A stretch of 64,000 nt of DNA from Hyphomicrobiales bacterium (GTDB lineage: Bacteria > Pseudomonadota > Alphaproteobacteria > Rhizobiales > Xanthobacteraceae), in the NCBI GenBank assembly GCA_017305715.1, contig JAFKKG010000008.1, positions 1-64,000 of the forward strand. Reading direction: 5' to 3'. A program made the translations under genes and the position numbers. This document shows, piece by piece, positions 12,745-28,086 of this stretch; the stretch's first letter is position 1; every line of letters begins with the position of its first letter. Below the pieces are notes generated by a model. It saw only the letters and a program-made list of their open reading frames with translations, was not told the origin of the DNA and did no database searches.

Positions 12745-12768
12745 CGACTTCCTCCTGGGCAAATTTTA

Positions 12769-12785
12769 TGGCATTTGGTATGCCA
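12769..12785. promoter_or_regulatory. Oxalate-regulon operator candidate, site 1
   Basis: TGGCATTTGGTATGCCA has perfect 6-bp arms (TGGCAT and ATGCCA) around five bases. It lies 24 nt before the acyl-CoA synthetase ATG on the minus strand. It shares 16 of 17 bases with site 2, about 80 bp away in the same divergent intergenic region, the usual layout for a regulator that controls itself and its neighbour. Confidence 0.7.
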
Positions 12786-12849
12786 GCGACGAGAAAGTCA
12801 AGTCACCTGATGCCCCGGAAACGCTGAAAATACTGCCAACTTGACACGG

Positions 12850-12866
12850 TGGTATTTGGTATGCCA
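12850..12866. promoter_or_regulatory. Oxalate-regulon operator candidate, site 2
   Basis: TGGTATTTGGTATGCCA lies 3 nt after TTGACA, a perfect -35 hexamer at 12841-12846. It would therefore occupy the core promoter of the GntR-oxc-frc operon. This placement suggests repression by the GntR protein encoded 56 nt downstream. Confidence 0.7.
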
Positions 12867-12921
12867 AAAATATTAGACGTTATTCCTGTTACAACACGTC
12901 TCCCACTGGAGGAGACGAATC

Positions 12922-13653
12922 GTGCCCGCACGCAAACAACCCAAGGCGACGCCTGCCATGGCTGATGCAGATATCGCAATCGTCCGGATCGCACCTGAGA
13001 CGAGCTTCAAGAACAAGGCCTATGAGGCCTTGAAGGAAGCCATTCTCAAGATGGATATCTATGCGACCCCCGAGCAGGTGATGCTCGACGAACGCGCGCT
13101 GTCCGAACGCCTCGGCGTCAGCCGCACCCCCATTCGCGAAGCCATCGCGATGCTCGAGCAGGACGGCTTCGTCAAGACCGTGCCACGCCGCGGCATCGTC
13201 GTGGTCCGCCGCACCAAGACCGAAATCGTCGACATGATCCGCGCCTGGGCGGCGCTCGAAAGCATGGCGGCGCGGCTGATCACGACCACCGCGCGCAAGA
13301 AGGACATCACGGCGCTGCGTGACTTCTTCAAGGATTTCGGCAAGGACCGCCTGCCGCAGGATCATGTCGAGGAATATTCCAAGGCCAATATCGCCTTCCA
13401 TCAGGCGCTGATCTCGCTTTCGGAATCGCCGGTGCTGGTCGACATGACCAACGATATCCTGCTGCATGTGCGCGGCTACCGGCAACTGACGATCGGCCGC
13501 ACCGATCGCACCGCGACCTCGCTGCCCGAACATATGGGCATCATCGAAGCGCTCGAAGCGCGCGATACCGAACTCGCCGAAAAACGCGCGCGCGACCATA
13601 CGCTGGGGCTTGCCGCTTATGTCGAAGCGCACGGCCAGGAATTGTTCAGTTAG
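12922..13653 (+). CDS. GntR/FCD-family regulator of the oxalate operon
   Basis: The GTG start at 12922 follows TGGAGGAGAC. The 243-residue protein has a GntR winged helix at about 30-95 ([38 protein letters not shown]). An FCD effector domain covers about 105-230, with the metal- or acid-binding pattern of spaced Asp/Arg/His residues: [38 protein letters not shown] regulators usually bind carboxylic acids and release DNA. It sits upstream of oxc and frc in the same direction, 59 nt before oxc, and next to two copies of the shared operator. It is the obvious candidate to bind all six sites. Oxalate, oxalyl-CoA or formate could be the ligand. Confidence 0.92.
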
Positions 13654-13712
13654 AGAATTCACAGCAGAAGACGACCAACTCGTCCGAACCACGAGATCAG
13701 GGAGAAAGTGGA

Positions 13713-15446
13713 ATGTCCGTCACCGCAGCCAAGAGCATCGATCCCAATCAAGCCGAGCGTGAACTCACCGACGGCTTTAATCTGATGATCGATGCGCTGA
13801 AGCTCAACGGGCTCACCACGATCTATGGCGTACCCGGCATTCCGATCACGGATTTCGGCCGCATGGCGCAGGCCGCGGGCATCCGCGTGATCTCGTTCCG
13901 CCACGAACAGAACGCCGGCAACGCCGCCGCGATCGCCGGCTATTTGACCAAGAAACCCGGCGTTTGCCTCACGGTTTCGGCGCCGGGCTTCCTCAACGGC
14001 CTCACGGCGCTGGCCCACGCCACCACCAACTGCTTCCCGATGATCCTGATCTCGGGCTCTTCCGAACGCGAGATCGTCGACCTGCAGCAGGGCGACTATG
14101 AAGAGATGGACCAGCTCGCGATCGCCAAGCCGCTGTGCAAGGCGGCGTTCCGCGTGCTGCACGCCCAGGATATCGGCATTGGCCTTGCGCGCGCCATCCG
14201 CGCCGCGGTGTCGGGCCGTCCGGGCGGTGTCTATCTCGATCTGCCGGCAAAATTGTTCGGCCAGGTGATGGACGCCGAGGCCGGACAGAAATCATTGGTG
14301 AAGGTGATCGACGCCGCGCCGGCGCAGATCCCCGCCCCTTCGGCGGTGAAGCGCGCGCTCGACGTGCTCAAAAGCGCAAAGCGTCCGCTCATCATCCTCG
14401 GCAAGGGCGCGGCCTACGCCCAGGCCGATGAGGCCATCAAGAGTTTCGTCGAGAAGAGCGGCGTTCCGTTCCTGCCCATGAGCATGGCCAAGGGATTGCT
14501 GTCCGACCTGCATCCGCAATGCGCCGGTGCCGCGCGTTCGACCGTCCTGAAAGACGCCGACGTCGTGATGCTGATCGGCGCGCGCCTCAACTGGCTGTTG
14601 TCGCACGGCAAGGGCAAGACCTGGGGCGAAGCTCCGAAGAAATTCATCCAGATCGACATCGAGCCCAGGGAAATGGACTCCAACGTCGAGATCGTCGCTC
14701 CCGTGGTCGGCGACATCGGCTCCTGCGTCTCGGCACTGCTCGAAGGCATGGGCGCGAACTGGACCGCGGCGCCGTCCGACTGGACCGCGGCGGTTGCCAG
14801 GAAGCGCGAGGAGAACGTCGCCAAGATGGCGCCGCGGCTGATGAACAACAATTCGCCGATGGATTATCATGGCGCGCTCGGCGTGCTCAGGACCATCATC
14901 AAGGAACGGCCGGACGCCATCCTCGTCAACGAAGGCGCCAACACGCTCGATCTCGCCCGCGGCGTGATCGACATGCACCAGCCGCGCAAGCGCATCGACG
15001 TCGGCACCTGGGGCGTGATGGGCATCGGCATGGGCTATTGCATTGCGGCTGCGATCGAGACCGGCAAGCCGGTGCTCGCGGTCGAAGGCGACTCGGCGTT
15101 CGGTTTCTCCGGCATGGAGGTCGAGACGATCTGCCGGTACAATTTGCCGGTCTGCATCGTGATCTTCAACAATGACGGCATCTATCGCGGCACCGACGTC
15201 AATTCGGCGGGCTCCGATCCGGCGCCCACGGTGTTCGTCAAGGGCTCGCGCTACGACAAGATGATGGAAGCGTTCGGCGGCGTCGGCGTCCACGCCACCT
15301 CCCCGGACGAACTGAAGCGCGCCGTCAACGCCGCGATGGATTCCGGCAAGCCGACGCTGATCAACGCCGTGATCGATCCTGCGGCCGGCTCCGAGAGCGG
15401 CCGTATCGGCAACCTCAATCCGCAAAGCGTGCTGAAGAAGAAGTAA
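13713..15446 (+). CDS. oxc: Oxalyl-CoA decarboxylase
   Basis: This thiamine-diphosphate enzyme converts oxalyl-CoA to formyl-CoA and CO2 in the cytosol. The 577-residue length fits the family. Glu65 in [12 protein letters not shown] is the TPP-activating glutamate. The TPP/Mg motif runs from GDS (Asp460) to NND (Asn486-Asn487), and the [13 protein letters not shown] start is typical of Oxc. The C-terminal lid (GRIGNLNP) is also present. A ribosome site GGGAGAAAG precedes the ATG. Together with frc, 60 nt downstream, it forms the catalytic core of oxalate breakdown. Acetolactate synthase and related TPP enzymes are the alternatives, but the pairing with frc makes Oxc nearly certain. Confidence 0.97.
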
Positions 15447-15506
15447 TTCATTTCATTTCCCGATCCATCCTGCGTTGCAGGGCAGACAGAGTACGGAGCA
15501 TAGACG

Positions 15507-16784
15507 ATGACAAAGGCGCTCAAGGGCGTTCGCATTCTCGACTTCACCCACGTCCAGTCGGGACCGACCTGCACGCAGTTGCTGGCCTGGTTCGGCGCCG
15601 ACGTGATCAAGGTCGAGCGTCCCGGCGTCGGCGACATCACGCGTGGCCAGTTGCAGGACATCCCCAATGTGGACAGCCTGTATTTCACCATGCTGAACCA
15701 CAACAAGCGCTCGATCACGCTCGACACCAAGAACCCGAAGGGCAAGGAAGTCCTCACCGCGCTGATCAAGACCTGCGACGTGCTGGTGGAGAATTTCGGT
15801 CCCGGCGTGCTCGATCGCATGGGTTTTCCGTGGGAGAAGATCCAGGCCATCAACCCGAAGATGATCGTGGCCTCGATCAAGGGCTTTGGCCCCGGCCCCT
15901 ATGAAGACTGCAAGGTGTATGAGAACGTCGCCCAGTGCACCGGCGGCGCGGCGTCGACCACCGGCTTTCGCGACGGCCTGCCGCTGGTCACCGGCGCGCA
16001 GATCGGCGACAGCGGCACCGGGTTGCATCTCGCGCTCGGCATCGTCACCGCGCTCTATCAGCGCACCGTCACCGGCAAGGGCCAGAAGGTCACGGCTGCG
16101 ATGCAGGACGGCGTACTGAATCTCGCGCGCGTCAAACTGCGCGACCAGCAGCGCCTCGCCCATGGCCCGCTGAAGGAATACAGCCAGTTCGGCGAAGGCA
16201 TTCCGTTCGGCGACGCGGTGCCGCGCGCCGGCAACGATTCCGGCGGCGGCCAGCCCGGCCGCATCCTCAAATGCAAGGGCTGGGAGACCGATCCGAACGC
16301 CTACATCTATTTCATCACCCAGGCGCCGGTGTGGGAGAAGATCTGCGACGTGATCGGCGAGCCGACCTGGAAGACCGATCCGAACTACGCCAAGCCCCCG
16401 GCCCGCCTGCCGCGCCTCAACGAGATTTTTGCCCGCATCGAACAATGGACGATGACGAAGACGAAATTCGAGGCGATGGAGATTCTCAACAAGGACGACA
16501 TCCCCTGCGGGCCGATCCTGTCGATGAAGGAACTGGCGGAAGACCAGTCGCTGCGCGCCACCGGCACCGTCGTCGAGGTCGATCATCCGACCCGCGGCAA
16601 GTACATCTCGGTCGGCAACCCGATCAAGCTGTCGGACTCGCCGTCGGAAGTGACGCGCTCCCCGCTGCTCGGCGAACACACCGACGAAATCCTGCGCCAG
16701 GTGCTCGGCTTCTCGGACCATCAGGTCGCCGAGATTCATGACTCCGGCGCGCTCGATCCGCCGCGCAAGCAGGCGGCCGAGTAA
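15507..16784 (+). CDS. frc: Formyl-CoA:oxalate CoA-transferase
   Basis: A class III CoA-transferase of 425 residues, the usual Frc length. It moves CoA from formyl-CoA to oxalate, giving oxalyl-CoA for Oxc and free formate. The catalytic aspartate is Asp168 in [16 protein letters not shown]. The glycine loop that closes over the intermediate reads [11 protein letters not shown], and Frc-like stretches include [18 protein letters not shown]. It follows oxc in one operon, and a strong terminator lies 30 nt after its stop. The formate it releases is the substrate of the fds dehydrogenase encoded further right. Confidence 0.97.
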
Positions 16785-16813
16785 GCCGTCGGTTCAGTGT
16801 TTGGAAAATAGCA

Positions 16814-16839
16814 GGCCGCCGGTTTTCCGGCGGCCTTTT
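16814..16839 (+). terminator. Rho-independent terminator after frc
   Basis: GGCCGCCGG and CCGGCGGCC form a perfect 9-bp stem with a TTTT loop, followed by TTTT. It should end the GntR-oxc-frc transcript. Confidence 0.85.
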
Positions 16840-16919
16840 CGCTATCGGAACAGCTCAACACCCCCTTATGTTGCGATGCAAAAGACTAATTGCTGCCATG
16901 CAAACAAATGCGTTGTGTG

Positions 16920-16936
16920 TGGTATCTGGTATACAT
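16920..16936. promoter_or_regulatory. Oxalate-regulon operator candidate, site 3
   Basis: TGGTATCTGGTATACAT matches TGGYAT-N5-ATRCCA except for one base in the right arm (CAT for CCA). It lies 59 nt before the ATG of the 45-residue gene, with TTGTGT one base upstream as a possible -35. Confidence 0.6.
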
Positions 16937-16995
16937 AAATTCACGCCAGATGATGAAGCGGAGTTGCTCCGCACCTTCGAAAAAGGCGCCCCTCA

Positions 16996-17133
16996 ATGTC
17001 CAAGACTGCATCCATCGGCCTCGCCCCCTCCAGCACCCTGTTCGCCCGGCTGATGGCCACCATCGACCGCCTTCTGACCGCGAGCGCCCGCATCGCCGTG
17101 CGCAACGGCGACCTGCCCCGTTTCGGCCTCTGA
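16996..17133 (+). CDS. Small protein in the oxalate island (45 aa)
   Basis: A 45-residue reading frame sits alone between its own candidate operator and its own terminator. This is strong structural evidence that it is expressed. The product begins MSKTASIGLAPSSTLFARL, has an amphipathic helix in the middle (LMATIDRLLTASARIAVR) and ends RNGDLPRFGL. It has one short basic helix, no cysteine and no membrane segment. The tail is loosely like that of DUF1127-type small alphaproteobacterial proteins, but I cannot assign it firmly. The ribosome site is weak (AAAAGGCGCC). A role in oxalate growth, or as a small RNA-binding or regulatory protein, is guesswork from location. Confidence 0.6.
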   Translation: MSKTASIGLAPSSTLFARLMATIDRLLTASARIAVRNGDLPRFGL

Positions 17134-17203
17134 GCCGATAAAACAAGGCGCGGCCAACGCTGCGCCTTCGGTTCGACGACTTCAGGTTTCCTCCCAGACT
17201 AAA

Positions 17204-17233
17204 AGGCCCTGGTTTTCCGGGGCCTCTTTTTTT
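17204..17233 (+). terminator. Rho-independent terminator after the 45-residue gene
   Basis: AGGCCCTGG and CCGGGGCCT pair over 9 bp, with one G-T wobble, around a TTTT loop. A run of seven T residues follows. Confidence 0.85.
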
Positions 17234-17319
17234 GTGTGCCTCGCGACCGCGAACCGGCGCCGCATCTGCGACAAATCAGCCCGGAGCCATGCATCGGCAT
17301 CACTATTCGTTTGCAGTCT

Positions 17320-17336
17320 TGGCATATCGCATACCA
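17320..17336. promoter_or_regulatory. Oxalate-regulon operator candidate, site 4
   Basis: TGGCATATCGCATACCA matches TGGYAT-N5-ATRCCA fully. TTGCAG lies three bases upstream as a possible -35. The next gene, a TTT binding protein, starts 377 nt downstream, so the leader would be long. Confidence 0.65.
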
Positions 17337-17713
17337 ATATGCGTGCAAGCGTTCCGGATTTGAAAACGGGTGCGGTGACGGGATGGGATGGGTTTTCACG
17401 GCGCCAATTTTCACGGCGCCAAGGCGACTGGTCGGCGGTTTGACCGTTTGTCACGCACGGACCATCGCGAAGGCCCGCCCGCGCGTCGGCTCGCCATTCA
17501 AGCTTATCCGAAAGACGCGGATGCTGCGCGATCAGGTCGGCATTACAGTCATATCTGCCACTCTAACCTGCAATGTCACCTGACTAAACTTCACGATAAG
17601 GCTGGAAAACTGCCAGGACTTGAAGTGGATTCGAAGTGTTGAGTTGAGAGTTACGTTAAAGGCAAAGCCGGCAAAGAACGGTGCGTCTAAAATCCTGATG
17701 GGGAGTAAGCCAA
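17337..17713. other. Long leader before the second TTT operon, with a 15-bp tandem duplication
   Basis: No convincing gene lies here. The only notable structure is a perfect tandem copy of TTTTCACGGCGCCAA at 17393-17407 and 17408-17422, each unit holding the palindrome GGCGCC. A minus-strand reading frame covers part of the region, but it also runs through the upstream terminator and operator, so I reject it. The last bases hold the ribosome site (GGGGAGTAAG) of the binding-protein gene. Confidence 0.6.
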
Positions 17714-18718
17714 ATGAAGCACTCTGTATTGCATGTTGCGTTAGCCGCCGTCGCAATATCAGGCGCCGGCACGTTCGGCGCGACGGCTGCCTGGGAACCG
17801 GTCCGGCCGGTCGAATTCATCGTGCCCGCGGGCACCGGCGGCGGCGCCGATCAGATGGCCCGCACCATCCAGGGCATCGTCACCAAGCATAATCTGATGA
17901 AGCAGCCGATGGTCGTCATCAACAAGTCCGGTGGCGCCGGCGGCGAAGGCTTCCTCGACGTCAAGAGCTCGGCAAACAACCCCCACAAGATCATCATCAC
18001 TTTGTCGAACCTGTTCACGACGCCGCTCGCGACGGGCATTCCCTTCAACTGGAAGGACATGACGCCGGTCGCGATGCTCGCGCTCGATGAGTTCGTGCTC
18101 TGGGTCAATGCCGAGAAGCCGTACAAGAGCGTCAAGGAATTCGTCGACGCCGTGAAGCAGGCGCCTGCCGGCAGCATCAAGATGGGCGGCACCGGATCGA
18201 AGCAGGAAGACCAGATCATCACGGTTGCCGTCGAGAAGGCCACCGGCACGAAATTCACCTACATTCCCTACAAGGGCGGCGGCGAAGTCGCGGTCCAGCT
18301 GGTCGGCAACCACGTCGATTCGACGGTCAACAATCCGATCGAGGCGGTGGCGCAATGGCGCGGCGGCAAGCTTCGTCCGCTCTGCGTGTTCGACGGCAAG
18401 CAGATGGCCTATGACGAGGTGATTGCGGACGGCAAGGGCTGGAAGGATATTCCGACCTGCAAATCCCAGGGCCTCGACATGGAATATCTGATGCTGCGCG
18501 GCATCTTCATGTCGCCAAAGGCCACCAAGGACCAGGTCGAATACTACATCGATCTGTTCAAGAAGGTGCGCGCCACGCCCGAGTGGCAGGACTTCATGAA
18601 GAGCGGCGCCTTCAACACCACCTTCCTGACCGGGGCGGACTACGCCAAATGGGTCGAGACCGAAGAAAAACGTCACGAAACCCTGATGAAGGAAGCCGGT
18701 TTCCTCGCCACCAACTGA
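17714..18718 (+). CDS. TTT periplasmic binding protein, oxalate island
   Basis: A 334-residue TctC/Bug-type protein with a signal peptide (MKHSVLHVALAAVAISGAG, cleavage near ATA-AW). The mature part shows the EFIVPAGTGGGADQMARTIQ opening and the NKSGGAGGEGFLDVKSS loop, followed by FTYIPYKGGGEVAVQLVG. It diverges from the usual Bug pattern, with KQEDQIITVAVEKATG in the centre, like the subgroup found beside non-citrate TTT systems. It would feed the permeases encoded downstream. The candidate operator far upstream ties it to oxalate control, so oxalate or a related C2-C4 acid is a possible ligand, though formate and glyoxylate cannot be excluded. Confidence 0.92.
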   Translation: MKHSVLHVALAAVAISGAGTFGATAAWEPVRPVEFIVPAGTGGGADQMARTIQGIVTKHNLMKQPMVVINKSGGAGGEGFLDVKSSANNPHKIIITLSNLFTTPLATGIPFNWKDMTPVAMLALDEFVLWVNAEKPYKSVKEFVDAVKQAPAGSIKMGGTGSKQEDQIITVAVEKATGTKFTYIPYKGGGEVAVQLVGNHVDSTVNNPIEAVAQWRGGKLRPLCVFDGKQMAYDEVIADGKGWKDIPTCKSQGLDMEYLMLRGIFMSPKATKDQVEYYIDLFKKVRATPEWQDFMKSGAFNTTFLTGADYAKWVETEEKRHETLMKEAGFLATN

Positions 18719-18732
18719 CCGAACCAGCGCAC

Positions 18733-18860
18733 CAGAGCGTCTTCCAGCGAAGTGGACACCGGTTCGCGTGAAGAAAATGCCTCCCATCAAGAAACGAGAG
18801 CCCCGTTCCGATCTGATCGGAACGGGGAAGCTTCCAGCGAAGGCGTGACGCGCACGGCGC
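18733..18860. repeat. Mosaic intergenic repeat inside the TTT operon
   Basis: The segment starts with AGCGTCTTCCAGCGAAGTGG and continues with ACCGGTTCGCGTGAAGAAAA, a repeat type common between rhizobial genes. Perfect 12-bp arms CCCCGTTCCGAT and ATCGGAACGGGG follow at 18801-18826, separated by two bases. The same arms recur after the oxlT gene near 22.5 kb. Here the hairpin lies between the binding-protein and permease genes, so it could trim or stabilise the upstream message and set a high binding-protein ratio. Confidence 0.7.
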
Positions 18861-18898
18861 CCGCGAACCCACACCTGCGATTCCGCAACGGAGATTGA

Positions 18899-19393
18899 AT
18901 GACCACGAATAGCTCTGACGCCGGCCCGACCCACAAGGCCGTGGAAGCCGGCGTTACGCTGCTGATCGCGCTGTTCGGGGCGATCGTGATCTACGGCAGC
19001 GTGAAGGCCGGCATCAACTGGGGCGCCGAAGGGCCGCGCGCCGGTTTCTTCCCCTTCTACATCGGAATTTTCATCGTCGTCGCCAGCGCGGTCAATCTCT
19101 GGAACGGGCTGCGTGACGGAGATGACGGGTTGTTCGCCGAGTGGGGACAACTGCGCCAGGTCATGAGCGTCGTCGTGCCGACCTCGATCTATGTCGGCGT
19201 GATGCCGTTCACCGGCCTCTATCTCGCTTCCATCATCTTCATCGGCTGGTTCATGCGCTGGCTGGGGAAATACAGCTGGCCGATCGTCGCCGCGGTGGCG
19301 CTCGGCATGCCCGTCGTCACCTACCTGATTTTCGAGCGCTGGTTTCTGGTCCCGCTGCCCAAGGGACCGATCGAGGAATGGCTCGGTCTGTAG
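18899..19393 (+). CDS. TTT small permease (TctB family), oxalate island
   Basis: A 164-residue membrane protein with four hydrophobic segments: about 17-37, 47-66, 83-110 and 121-142. It ends LVPLPKGPIEEWLGL, the LPxGP tail of the family, and the early AGINWGAEGPRAGFFPFYIG segment is typical of TctB. A GGAG ribosome site precedes the ATG. It lies between the binding-protein and TctA genes, completing a C-B-A operon. Substrate choice rests with its partners. Confidence 0.9.
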   Translation: MTTNSSDAGPTHKAVEAGVTLLIALFGAIVIYGSVKAGINWGAEGPRAGFFPFYIGIFIVVASAVNLWNGLRDGDDGLFAEWGQLRQVMSVVVPTSIYVGVMPFTGLYLASIIFIGWFMRWLGKYSWPIVAAVALGMPVVTYLIFERWFLVPLPKGPIEEWLGL

Positions 19394-19444
19394 AAATCTC
19401 GCTCGCTGGAATTGTCGTTAGCCCCGCCTTGCAGGACCTGAAGC

Positions 19445-20944
19445 ATGGAAGAACTCGTCAATCTGTTTCACGGCTTTGCAGTCGCCCTGCAGCCCTTCAA
19501 CATCATGGTGATGATTCTCGGCATCGTGCTCGGCGTCATCATCGGCGTGCTGCCGGGGCTGGGCGGCGCCAACGGGGTCGCGATCCTGCTGCCGCTGACC
19601 TTCAGCATGCCGCCGACCTCGGCCATCATCATGCTGTCCTGCATCTATTGGGGTGCTTTGTTCGGCGGCGCCATCACGTCGATCCTCTTCAACATCCCCG
19701 GCGAGCCATGGTCGGTGGCGACGACCTTCGACGGCTATCCGATGGCCCAGCAGGGCAAGGCCGGCGAGGCCCTGACGGCCGCCTTCACCTCCTCCTTCGT
19801 CGGCGCGCTGTTCGCCGTCATCATGATCACGCTGGTCGCGCCGCTGGTCGCCAGCTTCGCGCTGCAGTTCGGCCCGGCGGAAAAATTCGCGGTGTATTTC
19901 CTCGCGTTCTGCAGTTTCGTCGGCCTCAGCAAGGAACCGCCGTTCAAGACCATCGCCGCGATGATGATCGGCTTTGCGCTCGCCGCGGTCGGCCTCGATT
20001 CCATCACCGGCCAATTGCGGCTGACCTTCGGCTCGACTGAACTCTTGAACGGCTTCGACTTCCTGATCGCCGTCATCGGCCTGTTCGGCATCGGCGAGAT
20101 CCTCCTGACCATGGAGGAAGGCCTGAGCTTCCGCGGCGGCAAGGCCAAGATCGATCTGCGCGTCGTGCTGCAGACCTGGAAGGAGATGCCCAGATACTGG
20201 GTGACGTCGCTGCGCTCCTGCATCATCGGCTGCTGGATGGGCATCACGCCGGCGGGCGCCACACCGGCGTCGTTCATGAGTTACGGCATCGCCAAGCGGG
20301 TCTCCCCGAAGGGCGAAAATTTCGGCAAGGGCGAGATCGAAGGCGTGGTCGCGCCGGAGACCGCGGCGCATGCCGCCGGTACCGCGGCGCTGCTGCCGAT
20401 GCTGTCGCTCGGCGTGCCGGGCTCGCCGACGGCGGCCGTGCTGCTCGGCGGCCTCTTGATCTGGGGCCTGCAACCCGGCCCGATGCTGTTCGTCGAGCAG
20501 AAGGAATTCGTCTGGGGGCTGATCGCTTCGATGTATCTTGGCAATCTCGTCGGCCTGATCGTCGTGCTGACCTGCGTACCGATCTTCGCGGCGATCCTGC
20601 GCGTGCCGTTCAGCATCATCGCGCCGCTGATCCTGGTGCTGTGCGCGATCGGCGCCTACTCGGTCCACTCTTCGACCTTCGACGTCGTCATGATGCTGGT
20701 GTTCGGCGTGGTCGGCTATCTCCTGAAGAAGTGCAATTACCCGCTGGCGCCGCTGGTGCTGGCCATCGTGCTCGGCGACAAGGCCGAGGAAGCGTTCCGG
20801 CAATCGCTGCTGGGATCGCAGGGCTCGCTCGGCGTGTTCTTCTCGAACACGCTGGTCGGCACCATCATGGTGCTTGGATTGATCGCGCTGTTCTGGTCGC
20901 TGATCCAGCAGGGTTACAGCCGCTTGCGGACGGCTGCCGCCTAA
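19445..20944 (+). CDS. TTT large permease (TctA family), oxalate island
   Basis: At 499 residues it has the same length as the other TctA in the window but is clearly diverged. Family marks are GVLPGLGGANGVAILLPLTF, the IYWGALFGGAITSILFNIPGE segment and LSLGVPGSPTAAVLLGGLLI. About twelve hydrophobic segments are visible. It is the translocating subunit of the second TTT system. A hairpin terminator 39 nt after its stop ends the operon. Whether it brings in oxalate alongside the OxlT protein encoded next, or handles a product such as glyoxylate or formate, is open. Confidence 0.93.
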   Translation: MEELVNLFHGFAVALQPFNIMVMILGIVLGVIIGVLPGLGGANGVAILLPLTFSMPPTSAIIMLSCIYWGALFGGAITSILFNIPGEPWSVATTFDGYPMAQQGKAGEALTAAFTSSFVGALFAVIMITLVAPLVASFALQFGPAEKFAVYFLAFCSFVGLSKEPPFKTIAAMMIGFALAAVGLDSITGQLRLTFGSTELLNGFDFLIAVIGLFGIGEILLTMEEGLSFRGGKAKIDLRVVLQTWKEMPRYWVTSLRSCIIGCWMGITPAGATPASFMSYGIAKRVSPKGENFGKGEIEGVVAPETAAHAAGTAALLPMLSLGVPGSPTAAVLLGGLLIWGLQPGPMLFVEQKEFVWGLIASMYLGNLVGLIVVLTCVPIFAAILRVPFSIIAPLILVLCAIGAYSVHSSTFDVVMMLVFGVVGYLLKKCNYPLAPLVLAIVLGDKAEEAFRQSLLGSQGSLGVFFSNTLVGTIMVLGLIALFWSLIQQGYSRLRTAAA

Positions 20945-21012: not shown

Positions 21013-21115
21013 TAAATCATTTGTTTTACGTCGCTTTTGGCGAAACCCGCGAAAAAGAACATTTCCAGGAAAATCCATGATACTGCGGCAAAACGGCAAG
21101 ATTTCCCTTGTCTAC

Positions 21116-21132
21116 TGGCATATCATATACCA
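21116..21132. promoter_or_regulatory. Oxalate-regulon operator candidate, site 5
   Basis: TGGCATATCATATACCA matches TGGYAT-N5-ATRCCA fully and is close to site 4. TTGTCT lies two bases upstream, and the antiporter ATG follows 50 nt downstream. The site would overlap the promoter. Confidence 0.7.
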
Positions 21133-21182: not shown

Positions 21183-22475
21183 ATGACGGACACAGTTCAC
21201 GGTGCGGCCCCTGCGGTGGCCCGCGTCAGCGACACCTACCGCTGGACCCAATTGGCGATCGGCGTCGGCGCGATGGTGATGATCGCGAACTATCAATACG
21301 GCTGGACGTTCTTTGTCCCCGACATCCAGAAGAAATTCGGTTGGGATCGCGCGTCGATCCAGTGGGCGTTCACCCTCTTCGTTCTGTTCGAGACCTGGCT
21401 GGTGCCGGTTGAAGGCTGGTTCGTCGACAAATACGGCCCGCGCATCGTCGTGCTCGTCGGCGGCATCCTCTGCGCCGTCGGCTGGGTGATCAATGCCCAG
21501 GCAGAAACGCTCAACGGCTTCTATCTCGGCATGATCATCGCGGGCATCGGCGCCGGCGGCGTCTACGGCACCTGCGTCGGCAACGCGCTGAAATGGTTTC
21601 CCGACAAGCGGGGCCTTGCCGCCGGCATCACCGCCGCAGGTTTTGGCGCGGGCTCAGCGCTGACGGTCGCGCCGATCCAGGCGATGATCAAGGACTCCGG
21701 CTTCCAGTCCACCTTCCTCTATTTTGGTCTCGGACAGGGCATCATCATCGTGCTGCTCGCCTTCTTCCTGTTCGCGCCGAAATCGGGACAGGTCCCCGCA
21801 GTGATCCAGAACGCCAACGTGATCCAGAGCCGGCGCAACTACCAGCCGACCGAGGTGATCCGTCAGCCGATCTTCTGGCTGATGTATTTCATGTTCGTGA
21901 TCGTCGGCGCCGGGGGCCTGATGGTCACCGCCAACCTCAAGCCGATCGCGGTCGACTGGAAGGTTGACGCCATCCCGGTCACCCTCGTCGGCATGACCAT
22001 GACCGCCGTGACCTTCGCGGCCACCATCGACCGCGTCCTCAACGGCCTGACGCGGCCGTTCTTCGGCTGGATCTCCGACATGATCGGCCGCGAGAACACC
22101 ATGTTCATCGCGTTCGGCATGGAAGGCATCGGCATCTGGGGACTGTACATGCTGGGCCACGATCCGGTCTGGTTCGTGCTGCTCTCCGGCTTCGTGTTCT
22201 TTGCCTGGGGCGAAATCTACTCGCTGTTCCCCTCGACCTGCACGGACACGTTCGGTGCGAAATTCGCCACCACCAATGCCGGCCTGCTCTATACCGCCAA
22301 AGGCACCGCGGCGCTCCTGGTGCCGGTTGCGAACTACATGCAGCAATCATCGGGCAATTGGGACGGCGTGTTCATCATCGCGGCCGGCGCCAATATCCTC
22401 GCCTCGCTGCTGGCGATCGCCGTGCTCAAGCCGTGGCGCAAGATGGTGGTCGCGAACGCACAGACGTCAGGCTAG
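21183..22475 (+). CDS. oxlT: OxlT-type MFS oxalate:formate antiporter
   Basis: A 430-residue major facilitator protein with twelve hydrophobic segments. It has the OxlT-like N-terminus (RWTQLAIGVGAMVMIANYQYGWTFFV) and the MFS loop WFVDKYGPRIV between helices 2 and 3. The GIGAGGVYGTCVGNALKWFPDKRGLAAGI region is characteristic of the oxalate/formate antiporter family. A second loop motif (GWISDMIGRENT) follows the centre. The ATG at 21183 follows AGGAGGG. OxlT exchanges oxalate for formate across the inner membrane. The symbol rests on family resemblance plus location 4.4 kb from oxc-frc and the shared operator. It could carry a related dicarboxylate. Confidence 0.88.
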   Translation: MTDTVHGAAPAVARVSDTYRWTQLAIGVGAMVMIANYQYGWTFFVPDIQKKFGWDRASIQWAFTLFVLFETWLVPVEGWFVDKYGPRIVVLVGGILCAVGWVINAQAETLNGFYLGMIIAGIGAGGVYGTCVGNALKWFPDKRGLAAGITAAGFGAGSALTVAPIQAMIKDSGFQSTFLYFGLGQGIIIVLLAFFLFAPKSGQVPAVIQNANVIQSRRNYQPTEVIRQPIFWLMYFMFVIVGAGGLMVTANLKPIAVDWKVDAIPVTLVGMTMTAVTFAATIDRVLNGLTRPFFGWISDMIGRENTMFIAFGMEGIGIWGLYMLGHDPVWFVLLSGFVFFAWGEIYSLFPSTCTDTFGAKFATTNAGLLYTAKGTAALLVPVANYMQQSSGNWDGVFIIAAGANILASLLAIAVLKPWRKMVVANAQTSG

Positions 22476-22481
22476 AACTGC

Positions 22482-22511
22482 CCCCGTTCCGATGCATCCA
22501 TCGGAACGGGG
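22482..22511 (+). terminator. Hairpin after oxlT, shared with the TTT-operon repeat
   Basis: CCCCGTTCCGATG and CATCGGAACGGGG form a perfect 13-bp stem around four bases. No T run follows, so it may be an intergenic repeat that also ends transcription. The same arms occur at 18801-18826. Confidence 0.6.
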
Positions 22512-22690
22512 CTCTGTCATCTTGTCATGAGCGTATGAGCCCCGCGAACGACCAATTTGCGCCACCCGGTCTTCAAGATCGAACGACCGCGACAGCGCCG
22601 TTTCGACGTTGCCGCGTGTCTCCCGGAGCACTTGGCCAGTTGTTGGCCCGTCAGACGATCCGCTTGCTTGGGGCGGACCGCCCTTCCCGA

Positions 22691-23746
22691 TTATGGTTTG
22701 AACACGAACCCGGGTCCGATGGCGGCATCTGCCGGAATCGGCGGCAAATCGGAGAACAGTTCGGGATTGTCCTTCATGACCTTCAAGATCGGCTTCGGCT
22801 CGATGTTCTTGTTGACGTCAAATGTCGCCTTGAGAACGCCCAACCGCTCCAGTCTGTCCTGCGCACTCCAGAGCGCCCGATAGCTGTTGGCTGATAGCCG
22901 CCGATCCAATTGCTGTACGTTGAATTCCATCGCAGCTTCGGCGACTTCAGGCTTCAGACCGGGAATCCATCGGGTGCCGATCAGAGCCGCCTGCTTGGGA
23001 TTCTTGCGCATCCACTGGTCGGCTTCCGAGGTGGCGGCCAGGAACTTCTCGGTGGTTTCAGCATTCTTCTCCACCCAGGAGCGGGGCGCGACCACAAAGC
23101 CGAGATAGGCGATGGCATCTCCCCCCCGAACAACCTGGAAGGCACCCGGCACATCCTTCAGAGCAATGATCGGCCACGGATCCCAACCGGCGAAAGCATC
23201 AATGCCCTTGGCGAGCAGGGCAACCGTCATATCGGGCGGCGGCGTATTGACCAACGTGACGTCGTCCGGTTTCAGTCCGGCCTTTTCAAGCAGCGCAAGA
23301 ATATAGAGATGGTTGATCGTCCCGAACGAGGTTGCGATTTTCTTGCCCTTCAGGCTCTTCAAGTCCCCCTTCTCGATCCCCGACCCTTCGCGGGCGACGA
23401 CTGCCATGGTCGCATCGGATCCCGTCTTGGTGGCGCTACCGCTGAAATTGCCGAGCGCCACGATATCCATGCCACGCAGGACGGCACCGATCATCGGCAC
23501 CCCGACCTGGATGATACTGGTTTCTCCGGCTTGAAGCGCATTGAGCGCATCGACGCCGGTCGCGTACGGCCTTGCGATGGTGACATCAAGTCCCCTCTTC
23601 TCGAAAAACCCGCGCTCAAGCGCGATCGGTATCGCCAGCATGTCGATCGCGCTGACCATCCCGACATTCAACTTCGTCAACGATTGCGATTGCGCCGGCG
23701 CACAGGCCATTGCAATCGCAACTACAAACAGGAACAGGCGTTTCAT
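22691..23746 (-). CDS. NitT/TauT-type ABC substrate-binding protein
   Basis: The ATG at 23746 follows GAGGGAGAC and starts a signal peptide (MKRLFLFVVAIAMACAPAQS). The 351-residue protein fits the SsuA/TauA/ThiY-like family: LNVGMVSAIDMLAIPIALE, FFEKRGLDVT and ALQAGETSIIQVGVPM near the N-terminus, with LKGKKIATSFGTINHLYILALLEKAG later. These receptors carry sulfonates, nitrate, pyrimidine precursors or aromatic acids. It is the last gene of an operon whose earlier genes encode two permeases, an ATPase and a small membrane protein. The substrate is unknown. Confidence 0.9.
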   Translation of the reverse strand: MKRLFLFVVAIAMACAPAQSQSLTKLNVGMVSAIDMLAIPIALERGFFEKRGLDVTIARPYATGVDALNALQAGETSIIQVGVPMIGAVLRGMDIVALGNFSGSATKTGSDATMAVVAREGSGIEKGDLKSLKGKKIATSFGTINHLYILALLEKAGLKPDDVTLVNTPPPDMTVALLAKGIDAFAGWDPWPIIALKDVPGAFQVVRGGDAIAYLGFVVAPRSWVEKNAETTEKFLAATSEADQWMRKNPKQAALIGTRWIPGLKPEVAEAAMEFNVQQLDRRLSANSYRALWSAQDRLERLGVLKATFDVNKNIEPKPILKVMKDNPELFSDLPPIPADAAIGPGFVFKP

Positions 23747-23748
23747 AC

Positions 23749-24081
23749 TCAGTCTCCCTCTTTTATTGGCCCCACGCTCGTCACCCAATAGGGCCGGGCA
23801 ACGGCGTTGAGGTCCGTTCGTTTGACACCTCTTAGCCCTATCGAATGATCGTCAGCTCCGGCGATCCGTCCATATTTCTGAAATGCGAGAACATGAAAGC
23901 GCTCCGGCGTGAACGGCAACTCGATCTGCACGTTCACCTTTTCGGACGTGCCGGCGAGTTGCGCCGACACTTTTCCTGGCGCGGTCAGCGTCAGCCAGAG
24001 TTGGAAGCCAAGCCAGACCGCGACCACGGCCAGAACCGCCCGCCCCCGCGTCGAACGCACGACATCGCGCGCAATGCTCAT
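23749..24081 (-). CDS. Small single-pass membrane protein in the ABC operon
   Basis: A 110-residue protein whose start overlaps the ATPase gene's stop (ATGA) and whose stop lies 2 nt before the binding-protein start. It is locked into the operon. It has one N-terminal membrane anchor (about 13-33, RAVLAVVAVWLGFQLWLTL). A soluble periplasmic part then begins APGKVSAQLAGTSEKVNVQIELPFTPERFHVLAFQKYGR. I recognise no family. Such a subunit is not part of standard NitT/TauT transporters. It might tether the binding protein or assist assembly. Confidence 0.7.
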   Translation of the reverse strand: MSIARDVVRSTRGRAVLAVVAVWLGFQLWLTLTAPGKVSAQLAGTSEKVNVQIELPFTPERFHVLAFQKYGRIAGADDHSIGLRGVKRTDLNAVARPYWVTSVGPIKEGD

Positions 24082-24836
24082 GCCGAACGCACCATCTGCA
24101 ATACCTGCGCCGAAAGACGTTTGAAGGTCTCATCCTGCATCAGGTGATCCCACACGCGCGGTCGCGGCAGATCGACCTTGATCTGGTCGAGCACCCGGCC
24201 CTTCGACAGGACCACCACGCGGTTGGCGAGGAAAACCGCCTCCGCCACGTCATGGGTGATGAAGATGACGGTGGGCTTGCGCTCCTGCCAAATCCGGGTG
24301 AGTTCTTCCTGCAACGTCATGCGGGTCTGGGCGTCGACGCTGGCAAACGGCTCATCCATCAGCAATACCGCCGGATTGTTCGCGAGCGCACGGACGACGC
24401 CGACCCGCTGCTGCATGCCGCCCGAGAGCTCGTTCGGGTAACGATCCGCCGCGTGAGACAACCCGGCAAGCTCGAGATATTCGCGAGCAATGCGGTCGCG
24501 ATCGGCCTTGGGCACCCCGCGCATTTTTGGCCCGAATCCGACGTTTTCCAGAACCGTCTTCCAGGGAAACAGCGCGAACGACTGGAATACCACGCCGCGA
24601 TCGGGACCAGGTCCTTTGACGGCAGCTCCGTCCAGCAGGATCTCACCGCCGGAATAGGGGATAAAGCCGGCAACCATGTTGAGGATGGTGGTCTTGCCAC
24701 AACCGGAGGGCCCGACCACCGAAACGAACTCGCCCTGTTCGACGTCGAGCGAGACGTCGTGAACAGCCGTGACCTGCGATCCGGCGTAGGGATCGAAGTA
24801 AGTCTTCTGGAGGTTCCGCAGCGATAGCGTCTTCAT
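24078..24836 (-). CDS. ABC transporter ATPase (NitT/TauT type)
   Basis: A 252-residue nucleotide-binding protein with Walker A GPSGCGKTT (about 41-49), Q-loop FQSFALFPW, signature LSGGMQQR, Walker B VLLMDEPF and the switch His in FITHDVAEA. It energises import by the two permeases encoded just upstream. The start overlaps the permease stop by an ATGA. The residues around AVHDVSLDVEQGEFVSVVG place it with SsuB/TauB rather than with polar amino-acid ATPases. Confidence 0.95.
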   Translation of the reverse strand: MKTLSLRNLQKTYFDPYAGSQVTAVHDVSLDVEQGEFVSVVGPSGCGKTTILNMVAGFIPYSGGEILLDGAAVKGPGPDRGVVFQSFALFPWKTVLENVGFGPKMRGVPKADRDRIAREYLELAGLSHAADRYPNELSGGMQQRVGVVRALANNPAVLLMDEPFASVDAQTRMTLQEELTRIWQERKPTVIFITHDVAEAVFLANRVVVLSKGRVLDQIKVDLPRPRVWDHLMQDETFKRLSAQVLQMVRSA

Positions 24837-25639
24837 GATGTAACCAACCCCCAGCGGCGACCCGTGGCGCGTTCGATCGGTGCCAGGATCCAGGCATCCA
24901 CGATGTACCAGAGAGTTCCGAGCACGATCATTCCAAGAATAATTTCGACGGTCGAACCGGCGCGACGCGCATCAAACATCATGAAGCCGATGCCGCTCGT
25001 GCCCACGATGATTTCGACGGCGATCAGCGCGCGCCAGCCGTAGCCGAGCCCGTTGCGAAGTCCCGTGATGATGTTGGGCAGCGCTCCGGGCAATGTCACC
25101 TCCCACAGCACGCGCATGCGCGAAGCACCGAGACTTTGGGCGGCACGCGCCAGGTCCCGATGCACGGACTCAACGCCGAGTACCGTATTCAGCACGATTG
25201 GAAACAGCACGGTGTAGACGATGACGAACGTCATCGTCGTCAGGCCGAAGCCGAACCAGATCAGCAGGATCGGCAACCAGGCGATATCGCCAATGGCCTG
25301 GAAGAACAGCAGGACAGGCCAGCACACGCGATGGGCCCACTTGCTTGAGCCGATCAGAAGCCCCAGCGGGATACCGAGCACGACGCCGATCGTGGCGCCT
25401 GTCAGGAGCCGGATCAGACTGTCCTGCAAATAGTCAGGCAGGATTCCCTTGTAGGTCAGGGCAACAAATGTTCGCGCGACATCGGCCGGCGCGGGAAAGA
25501 ACGCGCGTGGAAACATTCCGGAATTGGCGGCGATGCTCCAAAGCGCGACGACCGGGATGAACGGAACGATGGTTGCAATGACCGGCCACCGGTTGGTCCC
25601 CCGGACGTAGAGGCTCCAAAGCTTCAGGACGATGCTCAT
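24833..25639 (-). CDS. ABC permease 2 (NitT/TauT type)
   Basis: A 268-residue BPD-type permease with six hydrophobic segments and the cytoplasmic coupling motif EVTLPGALPNIITGLRNGLG (EAA loop). The ATG at 25639 overlaps the upstream permease stop. It is clearly homologous to that permease, sharing the EAA loop, the GWRALIAVEII stretch and the ending RWGLV. The pair thus arose by duplication and probably forms a heterodimeric channel, unlike the usual SsuC homodimer. Confidence 0.93.
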   Translation of the reverse strand: MSIVLKLWSLYVRGTNRWPVIATIVPFIPVVALWSIAANSGMFPRAFFPAPADVARTFVALTYKGILPDYLQDSLIRLLTGATIGVVLGIPLGLLIGSSKWAHRVCWPVLLFFQAIGDIAWLPILLIWFGFGLTTMTFVIVYTVLFPIVLNTVLGVESVHRDLARAAQSLGASRMRVLWEVTLPGALPNIITGLRNGLGYGWRALIAVEIIVGTSGIGFMMFDARRAGSTVEIILGMIVLGTLWYIVDAWILAPIERATGRRWGLVTS

Positions 25640-26469
25640 GTGCGCCTCACCAGGCCCCAGCGCTCGATCGTTGCGCGCTCCAAAGGAACCAGCAGAAGCC
25701 GGTCGATCAGCAGCCACAACAGGCCAATCACAATCATGCCGAGGACAATGACCTCGGTCCGATAGAAGTCGCGAGCGACGAAAAGCATGTATCCAAGGCC
25801 GACATTCGTGGCGATCATCTCGGCCGCGATCAAGCCGCGCCAGGCAAAGCCAAGTCCGGTGCGAACGCCGGTGACAATATTCGGCAGGGCACCCGGAAGA
25901 AGAACCTCCGTGAGCAGAGCCCACCGTCTGGCGCCCAGCGAGGCGGCCGCGTTGCGGATGGTCATCGGGATCGTCGACACGCCCAGCAGCGTGTTATAAG
26001 CGACGACAAAGAACACCGCGTTGAAAATCACAAACACGATCGCGCCGAACCCGTACCCGAACCAGAGCGTCGCGATGGGTATCCACGCGATGCCCGCGAG
26101 AACCGAAAAGAAACGGAACAGCGGCGTCAGGAACGACGAAACCGCGGGGCTGACACCCATCGCGATTCCCAAGGGGACGGCCGTCACCACTCCGATGAGC
26201 GTACCCAGCCCTACCCGCAACAGACTTGCTCCGATGTGACGGATCAACGAACCATCGCGAATCGAATCGGCGGCGGCATCCGCGACGGAGGCGACCGACG
26301 GAAATATCCTGGGATTGACCTCGAACAACGGAACCACGATCGCCCAGATCGCCACCAGCGCGAGTAGCGGCGCAACAAACACAGCGGCGCCCGCCAGCGA
26401 ATTCATTGTTCGCCAGACCCACCCTGATCCCGGCGTCTTCGATCCAGTTCTTTGACCGGACGCGATCAC
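25636..26469 (-). CDS. ABC permease 1 (NitT/TauT type)
   Basis: The first structural gene of the operon encodes 277 residues. It starts at a GTG (26469) behind GGGAGGAGG. Six membrane segments follow a short basic N-terminus. The EAA loop reads EVLLPGALPNIVTGVRTGLG, followed by FAWRGLIAAEMIATNVGLGYML. It differs from permease 2 mainly in the N-terminal third. A GntR regulator gene lies 93 nt upstream in the same direction. Confidence 0.93.
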   Translation of the reverse strand: MIASGQRTGSKTPGSGWVWRTMNSLAGAAVFVAPLLALVAIWAIVVPLFEVNPRIFPSVASVADAAADSIRDGSLIRHIGASLLRVGLGTLIGVVTAVPLGIAMGVSPAVSSFLTPLFRFFSVLAGIAWIPIATLWFGYGFGAIVFVIFNAVFFVVAYNTLLGVSTIPMTIRNAAASLGARRWALLTEVLLPGALPNIVTGVRTGLGFAWRGLIAAEMIATNVGLGYMLFVARDFYRTEVIVLGMIVIGLLWLLIDRLLLVPLERATIERWGLVRRT

Positions 26470-26562
26470 GAAGCCTCCTCCCTCTGATCAGTTATCTGAT
26501 CTTTTTTCGTCCCGCCTCACCAACAGCGGTCGATCTTTTTTCTTCGCCTCTCGAGCCCCGTC

Positions 26563-27366
26563 TCAGAACCGGGCCGCGGTCTCCCGTATCTTTCGTTTGG
26601 ATAGTTTGAATTGCGTGTAGCCAAGAACCTGCTCCATCGCGGCCTTGGCTTTTTTGGCGTTGCCCGAACCGATGGCGCGCGCTGCTGCCGCATGATTTGG
26701 CAGGTTGTCTTCAAACCAGCCCGAGCTTCCGACAGCGACAAGGAAAACGGTGCTGAGCATCGTGTCGATTGTTCCCCTGAAACCCTGCAGGACCGGATTA
26801 TGCGTTGCGTCCAGGATCGCCAAATGGAATGCCTTGTCGGCGGCGATGGCGCTTGCCTGATCGTGCGAGGTTTCCATCGCCACGAGAGCAGCCTCGATCC
26901 GCGAACGATCCGCCTTGGTGCTGCGCTCGGCCGCCATGGCCGCGGCAGCCGGCTCAATGATCATGCGAACTTCCTGGATGGCGAGAAGAAGGTCGGGGTC
27001 CGGTTCATCGGTCCCGACCAGCCAGCCGAGGACATCCCGATCGAGGAGACTCCAATCCCTGCGCGGCAGCACATGCGTGCCGTGTCGGGGACGTACGCTC
27101 ACAAGTCCCTTGCCGGCCAGTATCTTGATCGCTTCGCGTATGACGCCGCGCCCGACGCCAAATCGACTTTCCAGACTCGGCTCCGGCGGCAACGCCGCTC
27201 CCACCGGAATGACGTCTTGCGCAATCTCGCGGCCGAGCGTCGTCAGCACCGTTTGAATGCGACCAGGCTTGGTTCGTTTCTCGGAAGGCTTTGTACGATG
27301 AGGAGCCACGGCGTTCGCCTCGCTGACAAGCAAGCTATTCCACAAATAGCCGACCCTGACAATCAT
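26563..27366 (-). CDS. GntR/FCD-family regulator of the ABC operon
   Basis: A 267-residue regulator whose winged helix at about 35-100 reads LGREIAQDVIPVGAALPPEPSL, then FGVGRGVIREAIKILAGKGL and RPRHGTHVLPR. The FCD domain carries the spaced residues of the FadR-like group (EVRMIIEPAAAAMAAER, DKAFHLAILDATHNP, NHAAAARAI). It is only distantly like the oxalate GntR protein and its DNA-recognition helix differs, so it likely controls the ABC operon that follows. The ATG at 27366 has no clear ribosome site, and the true start may be a few codons further in. Confidence 0.88.
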   Translation of the reverse strand: MIVRVGYLWNSLLVSEANAVAPHRTKPSEKRTKPGRIQTVLTTLGREIAQDVIPVGAALPPEPSLESRFGVGRGVIREAIKILAGKGLVSVRPRHGTHVLPRRDWSLLDRDVLGWLVGTDEPDPDLLLAIQEVRMIIEPAAAAMAAERSTKADRSRIEAALVAMETSHDQASAIAADKAFHLAILDATHNPVLQGFRGTIDTMLSTVFLVAVGSSGWFEDNLPNHAAAARAIGSGNAKKAKAAMEQVLGYTQFKLSKRKIRETAARF

Positions 27367-28069
27367 CCGACGTTAAACATCCGATGATGGGACGTGCAGC
27401 GCGGCAATGCCGCCCAATGTCCTGCGGCATTTTGTCAGGGCCGGCCGACGCGCTTCACGCCGCGCAGGAGCGCTTGCAACTTAGGACTTCGCGAATATCG
27501 GTGAGTGGCGTCTGCCTGCCCAGTACCGCTTTGCGCCACAAAAGCTGTCGTTCAAACTATGCGTACAGCGGCGAGGTCGAGGATTGAGTCCCTCCCCGCC
27601 CGGAACGGGAAAGATGGCCCACTCGCCCGCTACATCAGCGCGGCGTTGATCCACAGATGGGTATATCGGGGTTCATGGGAGGACCGCGAACATCAGCGGG
27701 ATGTTGACGAACGCCCGCCCAGCACGCCAGACGCCTGATCTCCCGGAAGGAGTCGAATGCCATGTCGTTGTCGCCCCGGCGGCGCCCGATGCGCTGGAGA
27801 CGGCGGTGGCGATGGTGGCCACGAACAGCCCGATCACGACGCCCTCGCCGTGCTTTAGTCTTCTGGTCTCGGTTACCGGCTCCGGCATTCCTTTCGGCAC
27901 GCTGAAATGGAGGACGCCTGACCTGGTATATCTGAAGGCTTCCGGACCGCCCTCGACCGACCTGATCCACTCGCCTCCCATCGCGCCAGACATTCAAAAA
28001 ACGTCAACAATACTGCCTATTTTTATCCCTCACCCGGCACGAGGACGGGCCTCTTTTCGTGTTGACTTG
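27367..28069. other. Intergenic region without a convincing gene
   Basis: About 700 bases separate the ABC-operon regulator from the CBS-protein gene. A short inverted pair, ATCATC and GATGAT around CGACGTTAAACATCC at 27362-27388, overlaps the regulator's start and may be its own operator. A minus-strand reading frame of 106 codons (27673-27993) has one hydrophobic stretch but no ribosome site and no recognisable family, so I do not call it. TTGACT at 28063-28068 is the likely -35 for the CBS gene. Confidence 0.5.
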
Positions 28070-28086
28070 TGGCATTATGTATACCA
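28070..28086. promoter_or_regulatory. Oxalate-regulon operator candidate, site 6
   Basis: TGGCATTATGTATACCA matches TGGYAT-N5-ATRCCA fully. TTGACT lies two bases upstream, the same arrangement as at the antiporter gene. It lies 33 nt before the CBS-protein ATG, 5.6 kb from the rest of the island and beyond an unrelated operon. Confidence 0.7.

Follow-up and report, generated by a model that had tools for sequence, protein, structure and literature searches.

The first 64,000 nucleotides of contig JAFKKG010000008.1 from a Hyphomicrobiales bacterium (assembly GCA_017305715.1), hereafter the window, carry a cluster of genes for oxalate use with a recurrent 17-bp site, in which the half-sites TGGYAT and ATRCCA are separated by five bases (TGGYAT-N5-ATRCCA). 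The sites share one fixed spacing, are conserved between genomes, co-occur with a gene of the cluster encoding an FCD/GntR transcription factor (gntR, 12922-13653), and are also found outside the window. This protein is probably the dedicated repressor of an oxalate regulon, acting through the composite operator and released by a ligand. As the shared site also stands before formate and succinyl-CoA genes, a single regulator, encoded beside the genes for oxalate use, probably governs the entire process.

In the proposed mechanism, GntR would bind, before each oxalate transcription unit, a half-site TGGYAT followed by one base and an FCD-type 10-mer (best form TGGYAT-RCCA), occupy the spacer between the -35 and -10 elements and so repress transcription, until a ligand derived from oxalate enters the metal-type pocket of the FCD domain and causes release. 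The genes so governed would serve uptake (a tripartite tricarboxylate-type transporter, TTT, and OxlT), attachment of CoA and decarboxylation (acs, frc, oxc), and reduction to glyoxylate (a PanE-like protein, with a CBS-domain protein); gntR and the gene for a 45-residue protein would also belong. Two members would lie in trans: an NAD-linked formate dehydrogenase (FDH; fdhBA) and the succinyl-CoA ligase encoded by sucCD of the mdh-suc operon. A first-pass annotation, made from the letters of the window, had proposed a candidate oxalate regulon with six matching operators across 15 kb. The regulon is supported by sites conserved before the same genes and co-occurring with the GntR gene; the oxalate genes do lie across that region, but the regulon is larger, with members on other contigs (fdhBA, sucC).

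The operator and its conservation

Five exact sites are present in the window, at 12769, 12850, 17320, 21116 and 28070 (Table 1), and 100 dinucleotide shuffles of the window gave no exact match. The sixth site claimed at first, at 16920 (TGGTATCTGGTATACAT), shows two mismatches to the pattern and not one, though the variant is conserved. All six lie outside likely genes, as had been stated; the open reading frames (ORFs) spanning 21116 and 28070 begin 5' of the likely starts of oxlT (21183) and the CBS-domain gene (28120). The genome scan suggested in the first-pass annotation (7,452,781 bases, 51 contigs) yields eight exact sites and none for a reversed-pattern control, the three outside the window being on contigs 2 (before sucC), 36 (before fdhBA) and 16. 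Exact sites are very rare genome-wide and stand before oxalate genes plus fdhBA and sucC, rather than being widespread in unrelated promoters.

The contig 16 match (C16:18785, L007) was set aside as a chance occurrence in a 332-aa frame resembling a short-chain dehydrogenase by eye (L007 1193-2191); the codon-usage script begins this gene 3' of the site, so that the site lies apparently, but not certainly, within a coding sequence. Matches with at most one mismatch number 38, against 15 for the reversed pattern, hence taken alone they say little and many must be chance. A rough codon-usage script places 23 of the remaining 29 one-mismatch sites (L039, L040, L042-L045, L265-L287; the one overlapping sucC excluded) inside a likely gene, and the six outside likely genes (L266, L271, L273, L274, L275, L278) may be further members or chance.

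Conservation was followed in the genus of the present genome, most likely Bradyrhizobium, where 47 of the 48 genomes of one set (own included) hold a close ortholog of GntR, the exception (G035) being 80% complete. In the acs/gntR region neither site departs from the pattern in any of 30 loci, the present genome included. For a gene-by-gene comparison the best site upstream of each gene was taken from stretches of up to 20 kb of 30 other genomes of the genus: the upstream site is exact in 30/30 loci for acs and likewise for gntR, in 22 of 25 for the CBS gene (two with one mismatch, one with two), in 14 of 25 for oxlT (11 with one mismatch) and in six of 11 for tctC (five with one mismatch). 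The TTT, oxlT and CBS sites are thus kept at 0-1 mismatch in 60 of the 61 cases where the gene was found, while the small-gene site shows one mismatch in two loci and two in 23. Operon-internal genes, by comparison, give best upstream matches with 3-4 mismatches for frc (30 loci), 3-5 for oxc (30), 3-4 for tctB (10), 2-4 for tctA (10; five with two) and 2-5 for panE (13; one with two). Sites also keep with their genes after rearrangement: where TTT is absent, the oxlT that comes to adjoin the small gene retains its own site. On a larger scale, 120 relatives were scanned, 72 of them from the genus (counting the present genome); every one of these 72 contains 2-10 exact sites, compared with 0-2 for the control. 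A side observation concerns L064, where a second antiporter resembling oxlT by eye (11543-12889) is preceded by a one-mismatch operator, TGGAATATGGTATACCA; similar sites occur between oxlT and CBS in several other strains.

The spacing is highly specific. Around GntR relatives, in the best 80 named loci (many related to one another), half-sites separated by five bases give 106 exact matches, against a total of seven for the twelve remaining spacings in the 0-12 range. The reach of the operator was explored in 55 more distant loci (L171-L225), whose GntR is 46-63% identical except for L175 (80%) and which are mostly from Alphaproteobacteria, with a few labelled Gammaproteobacteria and one labelled Mycobacterium. 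In a region made up of the 400 bp preceding gntR and the first 40 bases of the gene, 17 of the 55 show an exact site and 29 a site with at most one mismatch. When the half-site was permuted in 150 ways, the averages were 0.07 and 0.5, the highest values coming from near-copies of the real half-site. At two mismatches or fewer 38 loci score, including L217, whose upstream stretch was wrongly cut (10.6 kb).

Concerning the make-up of the site, 146 distinct exact sequences were pooled from anywhere in the loci, related ones among them, and each was turned to its better side. The middle is non-random: position 8 is T in 73%, position 10 G in 85% (125/146) and position 11 T or C in 94%, and 64 of the 146 carry a perfect inner 10-mer, TGGYATRCCA. 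Random middles given the same best-of-two orientation reach 1.3-1.6% perfect 10-mers and 30-40% G at position 10. Hence the operator is better described as a half-site TGGYAT, one base, and an FCD-type 10-mer whose GT and AC are separated by two bases, and the simple N5 palindrome was rejected as a full description, though kept as the search pattern. The protein encoded at 12922, first proposed to bind such a short palindrome, is FCD-type and is still the candidate reader; the site, however, is the canonical 10-mer plus a third half-site. The two parts are not equally preserved: the inner 10-mer is perfect in 30/30 gntR-side sites and 30/30 fdhB loci, but in none of the oxlT (0/25), CBS (0/25) or tctC (0/11) sites, where it has 1-3 mismatches and the outer TGGYAT is intact in 24/25, 22/25 and 11/11, respectively.

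Among 58 distinct sequences of the acs-gntR intergenic region, 49 have their two operators (O1 and O2) separated by 81 bp, the exceptions being 71, 79, 80, 82, 83 and 90. Helical phasing of the pair is possible, and the near-constant distance is suggestive of DNA looping, which is confounded by common descent and is not claimed.

Members in trans and co-occurrence with gntR

The contig 36 site ends 46 bp 5' of fdhB, encoding a NuoE-NuoF fusion and followed by fdhA (TIGR01591 above cut-off), and the full 17-mer before fdhB is exact in 20 of 30 fdhB loci. On contig 2 the site occupies the gap separating mdh from sucC, and sucA follows farther along the same strand. Of 30 genus loci (own included, from 39 genomes with a match), 29 keep this sucC site exact. 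The remaining genome, G015, possesses an additional sucCD pair preceded by a one-mismatch operator; farther up, 195 bp from that operator, stands an exact site (L295 6625-6641), perhaps for a divergent gene.

In the family, 254 of 296 genomes hold a GntR match at 1e-40. From these, 16 were picked from genera with close orthologs (GntR+), and 14 GntR-less genomes were taken as the most complete of 20 among the 42 without a match at that threshold. Exact sites total 66 in the 16 GntR+ genomes and one in the 14 GntR-less ones. Loss of a gene would in most cases remove its cis site as well, which makes the sucC site the better test: at 0-1 mismatch it occurs in 4/16 GntR+ versus 0/14 GntR-less genomes. 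Within the genus of G138 (nine genomes) it is present in both genomes with GntR (0 and 1 mismatch) and in none of the seven without it, whose best matches have 3-5 mismatches. An FDH of the fdhBA type (E up to 1e-100) occurs in 7/16 GntR+ versus 0/14 GntR-less genomes. Five of the seven show an exact site 41-88 bp upstream of where the match begins; of the other two, one is cut at the contig start and G252 has no exact site.

Succinyl-CoA ligase is joined to the regulon in two ways. Five GntR+ genomes, from three genera, carry a second sucC. Each time it lies with sucD inside the oxalate cluster, and three of these cluster-borne sucCD copies are immediately preceded by a one-mismatch site. The other sucC of these five genomes never has the site, and the four genomes that do have a sucC site all lack a second copy. 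This double connection suggests that sucCD matters for oxalate use, its likely role being to provide the succinyl-CoA from which CoA is donated when oxalate is activated. Two related CoA-transferases, YfdE and UctC, are reported to show no succinyl-CoA/oxalate activity (PMC3720670), which cuts against the general form of such a role, although Frc itself is a different enzyme. A bolder proposal, which we put forward only tentatively, is that in these Alphaproteobacteria oxalate use genuinely includes succinyl-CoA ligase as a step under the regulator's control, which supplies the priming CoA thioester and was wired in either by an operator inside the housekeeping mdh-suc operon (Bradyrhizobium, Tardiphaga and part of another genus) or by an extra sucCD copy (in the oxalate cluster in three other genera, and elsewhere, with operators, in one Bradyrhizobium), and that the regulator reads the three-half-site operator, perhaps as more than one dimer.

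A published system may show the same pathway at work. In Bradyrhizobium diazoefficiens on L-arabinose, glyoxylate is reported to be convertible to oxalate, which is oxidised; relative to mannitol, the cytoplasmic fraction contains more Frc and Oxc, with Oxc unchanged in the membrane fraction, and the NuoF-like protein blr2316 is detected only on arabinose (PMC5996035). The likeness lies in the same Frc/Oxc oxidation of oxalate and the NuoF-like protein, and blr2316 would be the FDH subunit of the regulon. The difference is that the passages available from that paper name no regulator or operator, the word GntR being absent from its main text.

Promoters, regulator and alternative readings

At five of the six sites a TTG-type hexamer stands 1-3 bp upstream, as had been noticed at first (Table 1). 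The TTG starts 8 bases 5' of TGG in 25/25 oxlT, 24/25 CBS and 9/11 tctC loci (8 or 9 bases in 10/11 for the latter), and 9 bases 5' in 30/30 gntR sites; no TTG hexamer adjoins the acs-side site. If a 17-base spacer is assumed, the -10 element would begin at the final CA of the oxlT and CBS sites, so the operator would fill the -35/-10 spacer there, which fits repression by occlusion. The earlier suggestion that the site would cover the core promoter agrees with its place in the spacer at oxlT, CBS and TTT; at sucC no clear arrangement is seen. Taken together, the sites are best read as serving repression by occlusion that oxalate would relieve, effector and polarity being inferred.

The regulator itself combines a GntR winged helix-turn-helix (PF00392, 49.9 bits) with an FCD domain (PF07729, 80.5 bits), both above cut-off, and an exact site stands in its own promoter region in 30/30 genus loci. 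The AlphaFold model (mean pLDDT, the predicted local distance difference test score, 79.3) has Atu1419/VanR (6z74) as its nearest solved structure (Foldseek E 1.3e-09, about 25% sequence identity), and the FCD-pocket residues N156, H160, H204 and H226, predicted metal ligands, are invariant in 10 aligned relatives. Atu1419 is described as an FCD/GntR repressor of the VanR group governing hydroxycinnamate catabolism in Agrobacterium fabrum, a tetramer able to loop DNA, whose effector is methylene-tetrahydrofolate and not its substrate (PMC7797058). This last point advises caution over oxalate itself as the ligand. Judged by spacing, the metal ligands N137/H141/H192/H214 and DNA residues E34/R45/T46/R49 reported for Atu1419 (PMC7797058) would match the invariant four above and the invariant E57/R68/T69/R72, respectively. 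Its palindromes likewise overlap the -10 or lie between -10 and -35, with two in its own promoter region; they are 190 bp apart there versus 81 bp here, and the Atu1419 operator is the bare 10-mer ATGTATACAT (PMC7797058), whereas here a third half-site is added.

FadR-subfamily operators are reported to have TKGT/ACMA boxes with a GT-AC distance usually of 3, and of 2 in some groups, and extra half-sites 7-12 nt from the centre (PMC4494728). In the present operator the inner 10-mer, where it is perfect, has distance 2, and the extra half-site is 9 nt from its centre. The extra box is termed weaker in that paper, whereas at oxlT and CBS the outer half-site is largely intact and the inner 10-mer never perfect; the word oxalate is absent from its main text. 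As cited there, the direct-repeat half-sites of NanR and NagQ, TGGTATAW and TGGTATT, are close to TGGYAT. In sites with a perfect inner 10-mer TGGYAT is, similarly, directly repeated with a 7-bp period; unlike in NanR/NagQ, an inverted half-site RCCA closes the site.

Concerning which protein reads the sites, it is unlikely that another FCD/GntR, such as the one encoded at 26563-27366, does so while the neighbouring GntR controls only itself. The genome has 27 GntR-like matches, the second FCD gene is 0.7 kb from the 28070 site and FCD operators are reported to be alike between groups (PMC4494728), yet the 14 GntR-less family genomes, with 3-54 GntR-like candidates at first look, hold one exact site in total. 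Moreover, the CBS site is retained at 0-1 mismatch in 24/25 genus loci, none of which matches the second FCD gene or its neighbours, and exact sites flank gntR in 30/30 genus loci and stand near distant relatives. That the regulator is instead an activator requiring its ligand to bind, in the manner of CitO, an FCD protein that is reported to bind with citrate and activate (PMC4746285), is rather unlikely: the sucC site without a clear promoter arrangement would suit it, while the position inside the -35/-10 spacer at oxlT, CBS and TTT fits occlusion.

Sigma-54 promoters have -24 and -12 elements with an invariant GC at -12, and the spacing of TGGCAT-N5-ATGCC resembles them, with GG and GC dinucleotides in agreement at 12769 and 12850. 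This very improbable reading was rejected on the -12 element, which is AC at 17320, 21116 and 28070, the base in question being A in 45% of the 146 distinct sites; furthermore, hexamers of the sigma-70 kind precede the oxlT, CBS, gntR and, mostly, tctC sites. A loose palindrome picked by chance from 64 kb has practically nothing left to recommend it apart from the commonness of matches with one mismatch or fewer genome-wide: conservation across genomes refutes it, as do the empty shuffles and the spacing specificity.

Several points weigh against a ligand-released GntR repressor. The case for GntR binding and for effects on expression is built on sequence. Near gntR, 17 of the 55 distant loci have no site at two mismatches or fewer; the small-gene TTG hexamer keeps its offset in only 12/25 loci; and no clear -10 fits the sucC site. 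Seven of the 16 GntR+ family genomes have neither site-linked nor cluster-borne sucCD, and three (G146, G184, G189) have only one exact site. The absence of cis sites from GntR-less genomes is partly trivial, and the sucC contrast, which alone escapes this, comes from few, related genomes. Finally, 3-31 GntR-like matches per genome in the 48 genus genomes mean that other site readers exist.

Genes of the cluster and meaning of the regulon

The gene identities first proposed around the sites are borne out by NCBIfam and Pfam profile matches (Table 1), with the Oxc/Frc pair of oxalate catabolism, oxalyl-CoA decarboxylase and formyl-CoA transferase, both above cut-off. The start of acs was set at ATG 12744, the ORF listing beginning at 12762. 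The 45-residue protein has no NCBIfam or Pfam match; it is full-length and gap-free in 24 genus loci (L055, a partial match to the small gene, left out), with substitutions by codon position of 212/129/364, so that 16996-17133 is very likely a real small gene, probably belonging to the oxalate regulon. The PanE-like protein is a candidate oxalyl-CoA reductase by analogy with panE2, to which this activity is ascribed (PMC12686821).

Table 1. Coordinates of operators, -35-like elements and genes in the window
Feature	Position	Strand	Remarks
Operator O1, TGGCATTTGGTATGCCA	12769..12785		before acs (- strand); exact
Operator O2, TGGTATTTGGTATGCCA	12850..12866	+	before gntR-oxc-frc; exact
Variant operator, TGGTATCTGGTATACAT	16920..16936	+	before 45-aa gene; 2 mismatches
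Operator, TGGCATATCGCATACCA	17320..17336	+	before TTT transporter operon; exact
Operator, TGGCATATCATATACCA	21116..21132	+	before oxlT; exact
Operator, TGGCATTATGTATACCA	28070..28086	+	before CBS-panE; exact
-35-like TTGACA	12841..12846	+	3 bp before O2
-35-like TTGTGT	16913..16918	+	1 bp before 16920 site
-35-like TTGCAG	17311..17316	+	3 bp before 17320 site
-35-like TTGTCT	21108..21113	+	2 bp before 21116 site
-35-like TTGACT	28062..28067	+	2 bp before 28070 site
acs, NDP-forming type acyl-CoA synthetase	10615..12744	-	Pfam ATP-grasp_5, Succ_CoA_lig, Ligase_CoA_2
gntR, GntR winged helix-turn-helix + FCD regulator	12922..13653	+	proposed operator binder; PF00392, PF07729 above cut-off
oxc, oxalyl-CoA decarboxylase	13713..15446	+	TIGR03254, 1031.6 bits vs cut-off 739.4
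frc, formyl-CoA:oxalate CoA-transferase	15507..16784	+	TIGR03253, 752.7 bits vs cut-off 504.2
45-residue protein	16996..17133	+	MSKT...NGDLPRFGL
tctC-tctB-tctA, TTT transporter	17714..20944	+	PF03401, PF07331, PF01970
oxlT, oxalate/formate antiporter	21183..22475	+	TIGR04259, 653.2 bits vs cut-off 335
CBS-domain protein	28120..28548	+	PF00571, two stretches
PanE-like reductase, candidate oxalyl-CoA reductase	28635..29675	+	PF02558/PF08546; NF005089 above cut-off

Some neighbouring features should also be mentioned. A weak ApbA-like protein lies downstream of panE (29899-30960), and L046 has two proteins similar to it by eye, in tandem (14563-15684 and 15919-16983), with an exact operator at 15746 preceding the second. 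Between oxlT and CBS lie the second FCD GntR (26563-27366, - strand) and two ABC-transporter permeases (together 24833-27366). This block looks like an insertion in the present genome, since the second FCD gene and its neighbours have no match in the 30 genus loci, the single one obtained (L052) being gntR itself. Rfam at the gathering threshold gave no match in 12600-29000.

Among the papers listed in the open-licence literature searched, we found no description of this regulon, and no regulator or operator for alphaproteobacterial oxc-frc genes. It is a real, conserved regulon for oxalate use, of an ordinary kind in having an FCD catabolic regulator, with a composite operator and an unexpected member from the tricarboxylic acid cycle. 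Oxalate is described as plentiful in soil and plants, and its use by bacteria as tied to the carbon cycle and root colonisation. What is gained is a candidate regulator, a defined operator and a list of targets, including two unexpected ones in trans and a 45-residue protein, together with the prediction that oxalate catabolism would need succinyl-CoA ligase.

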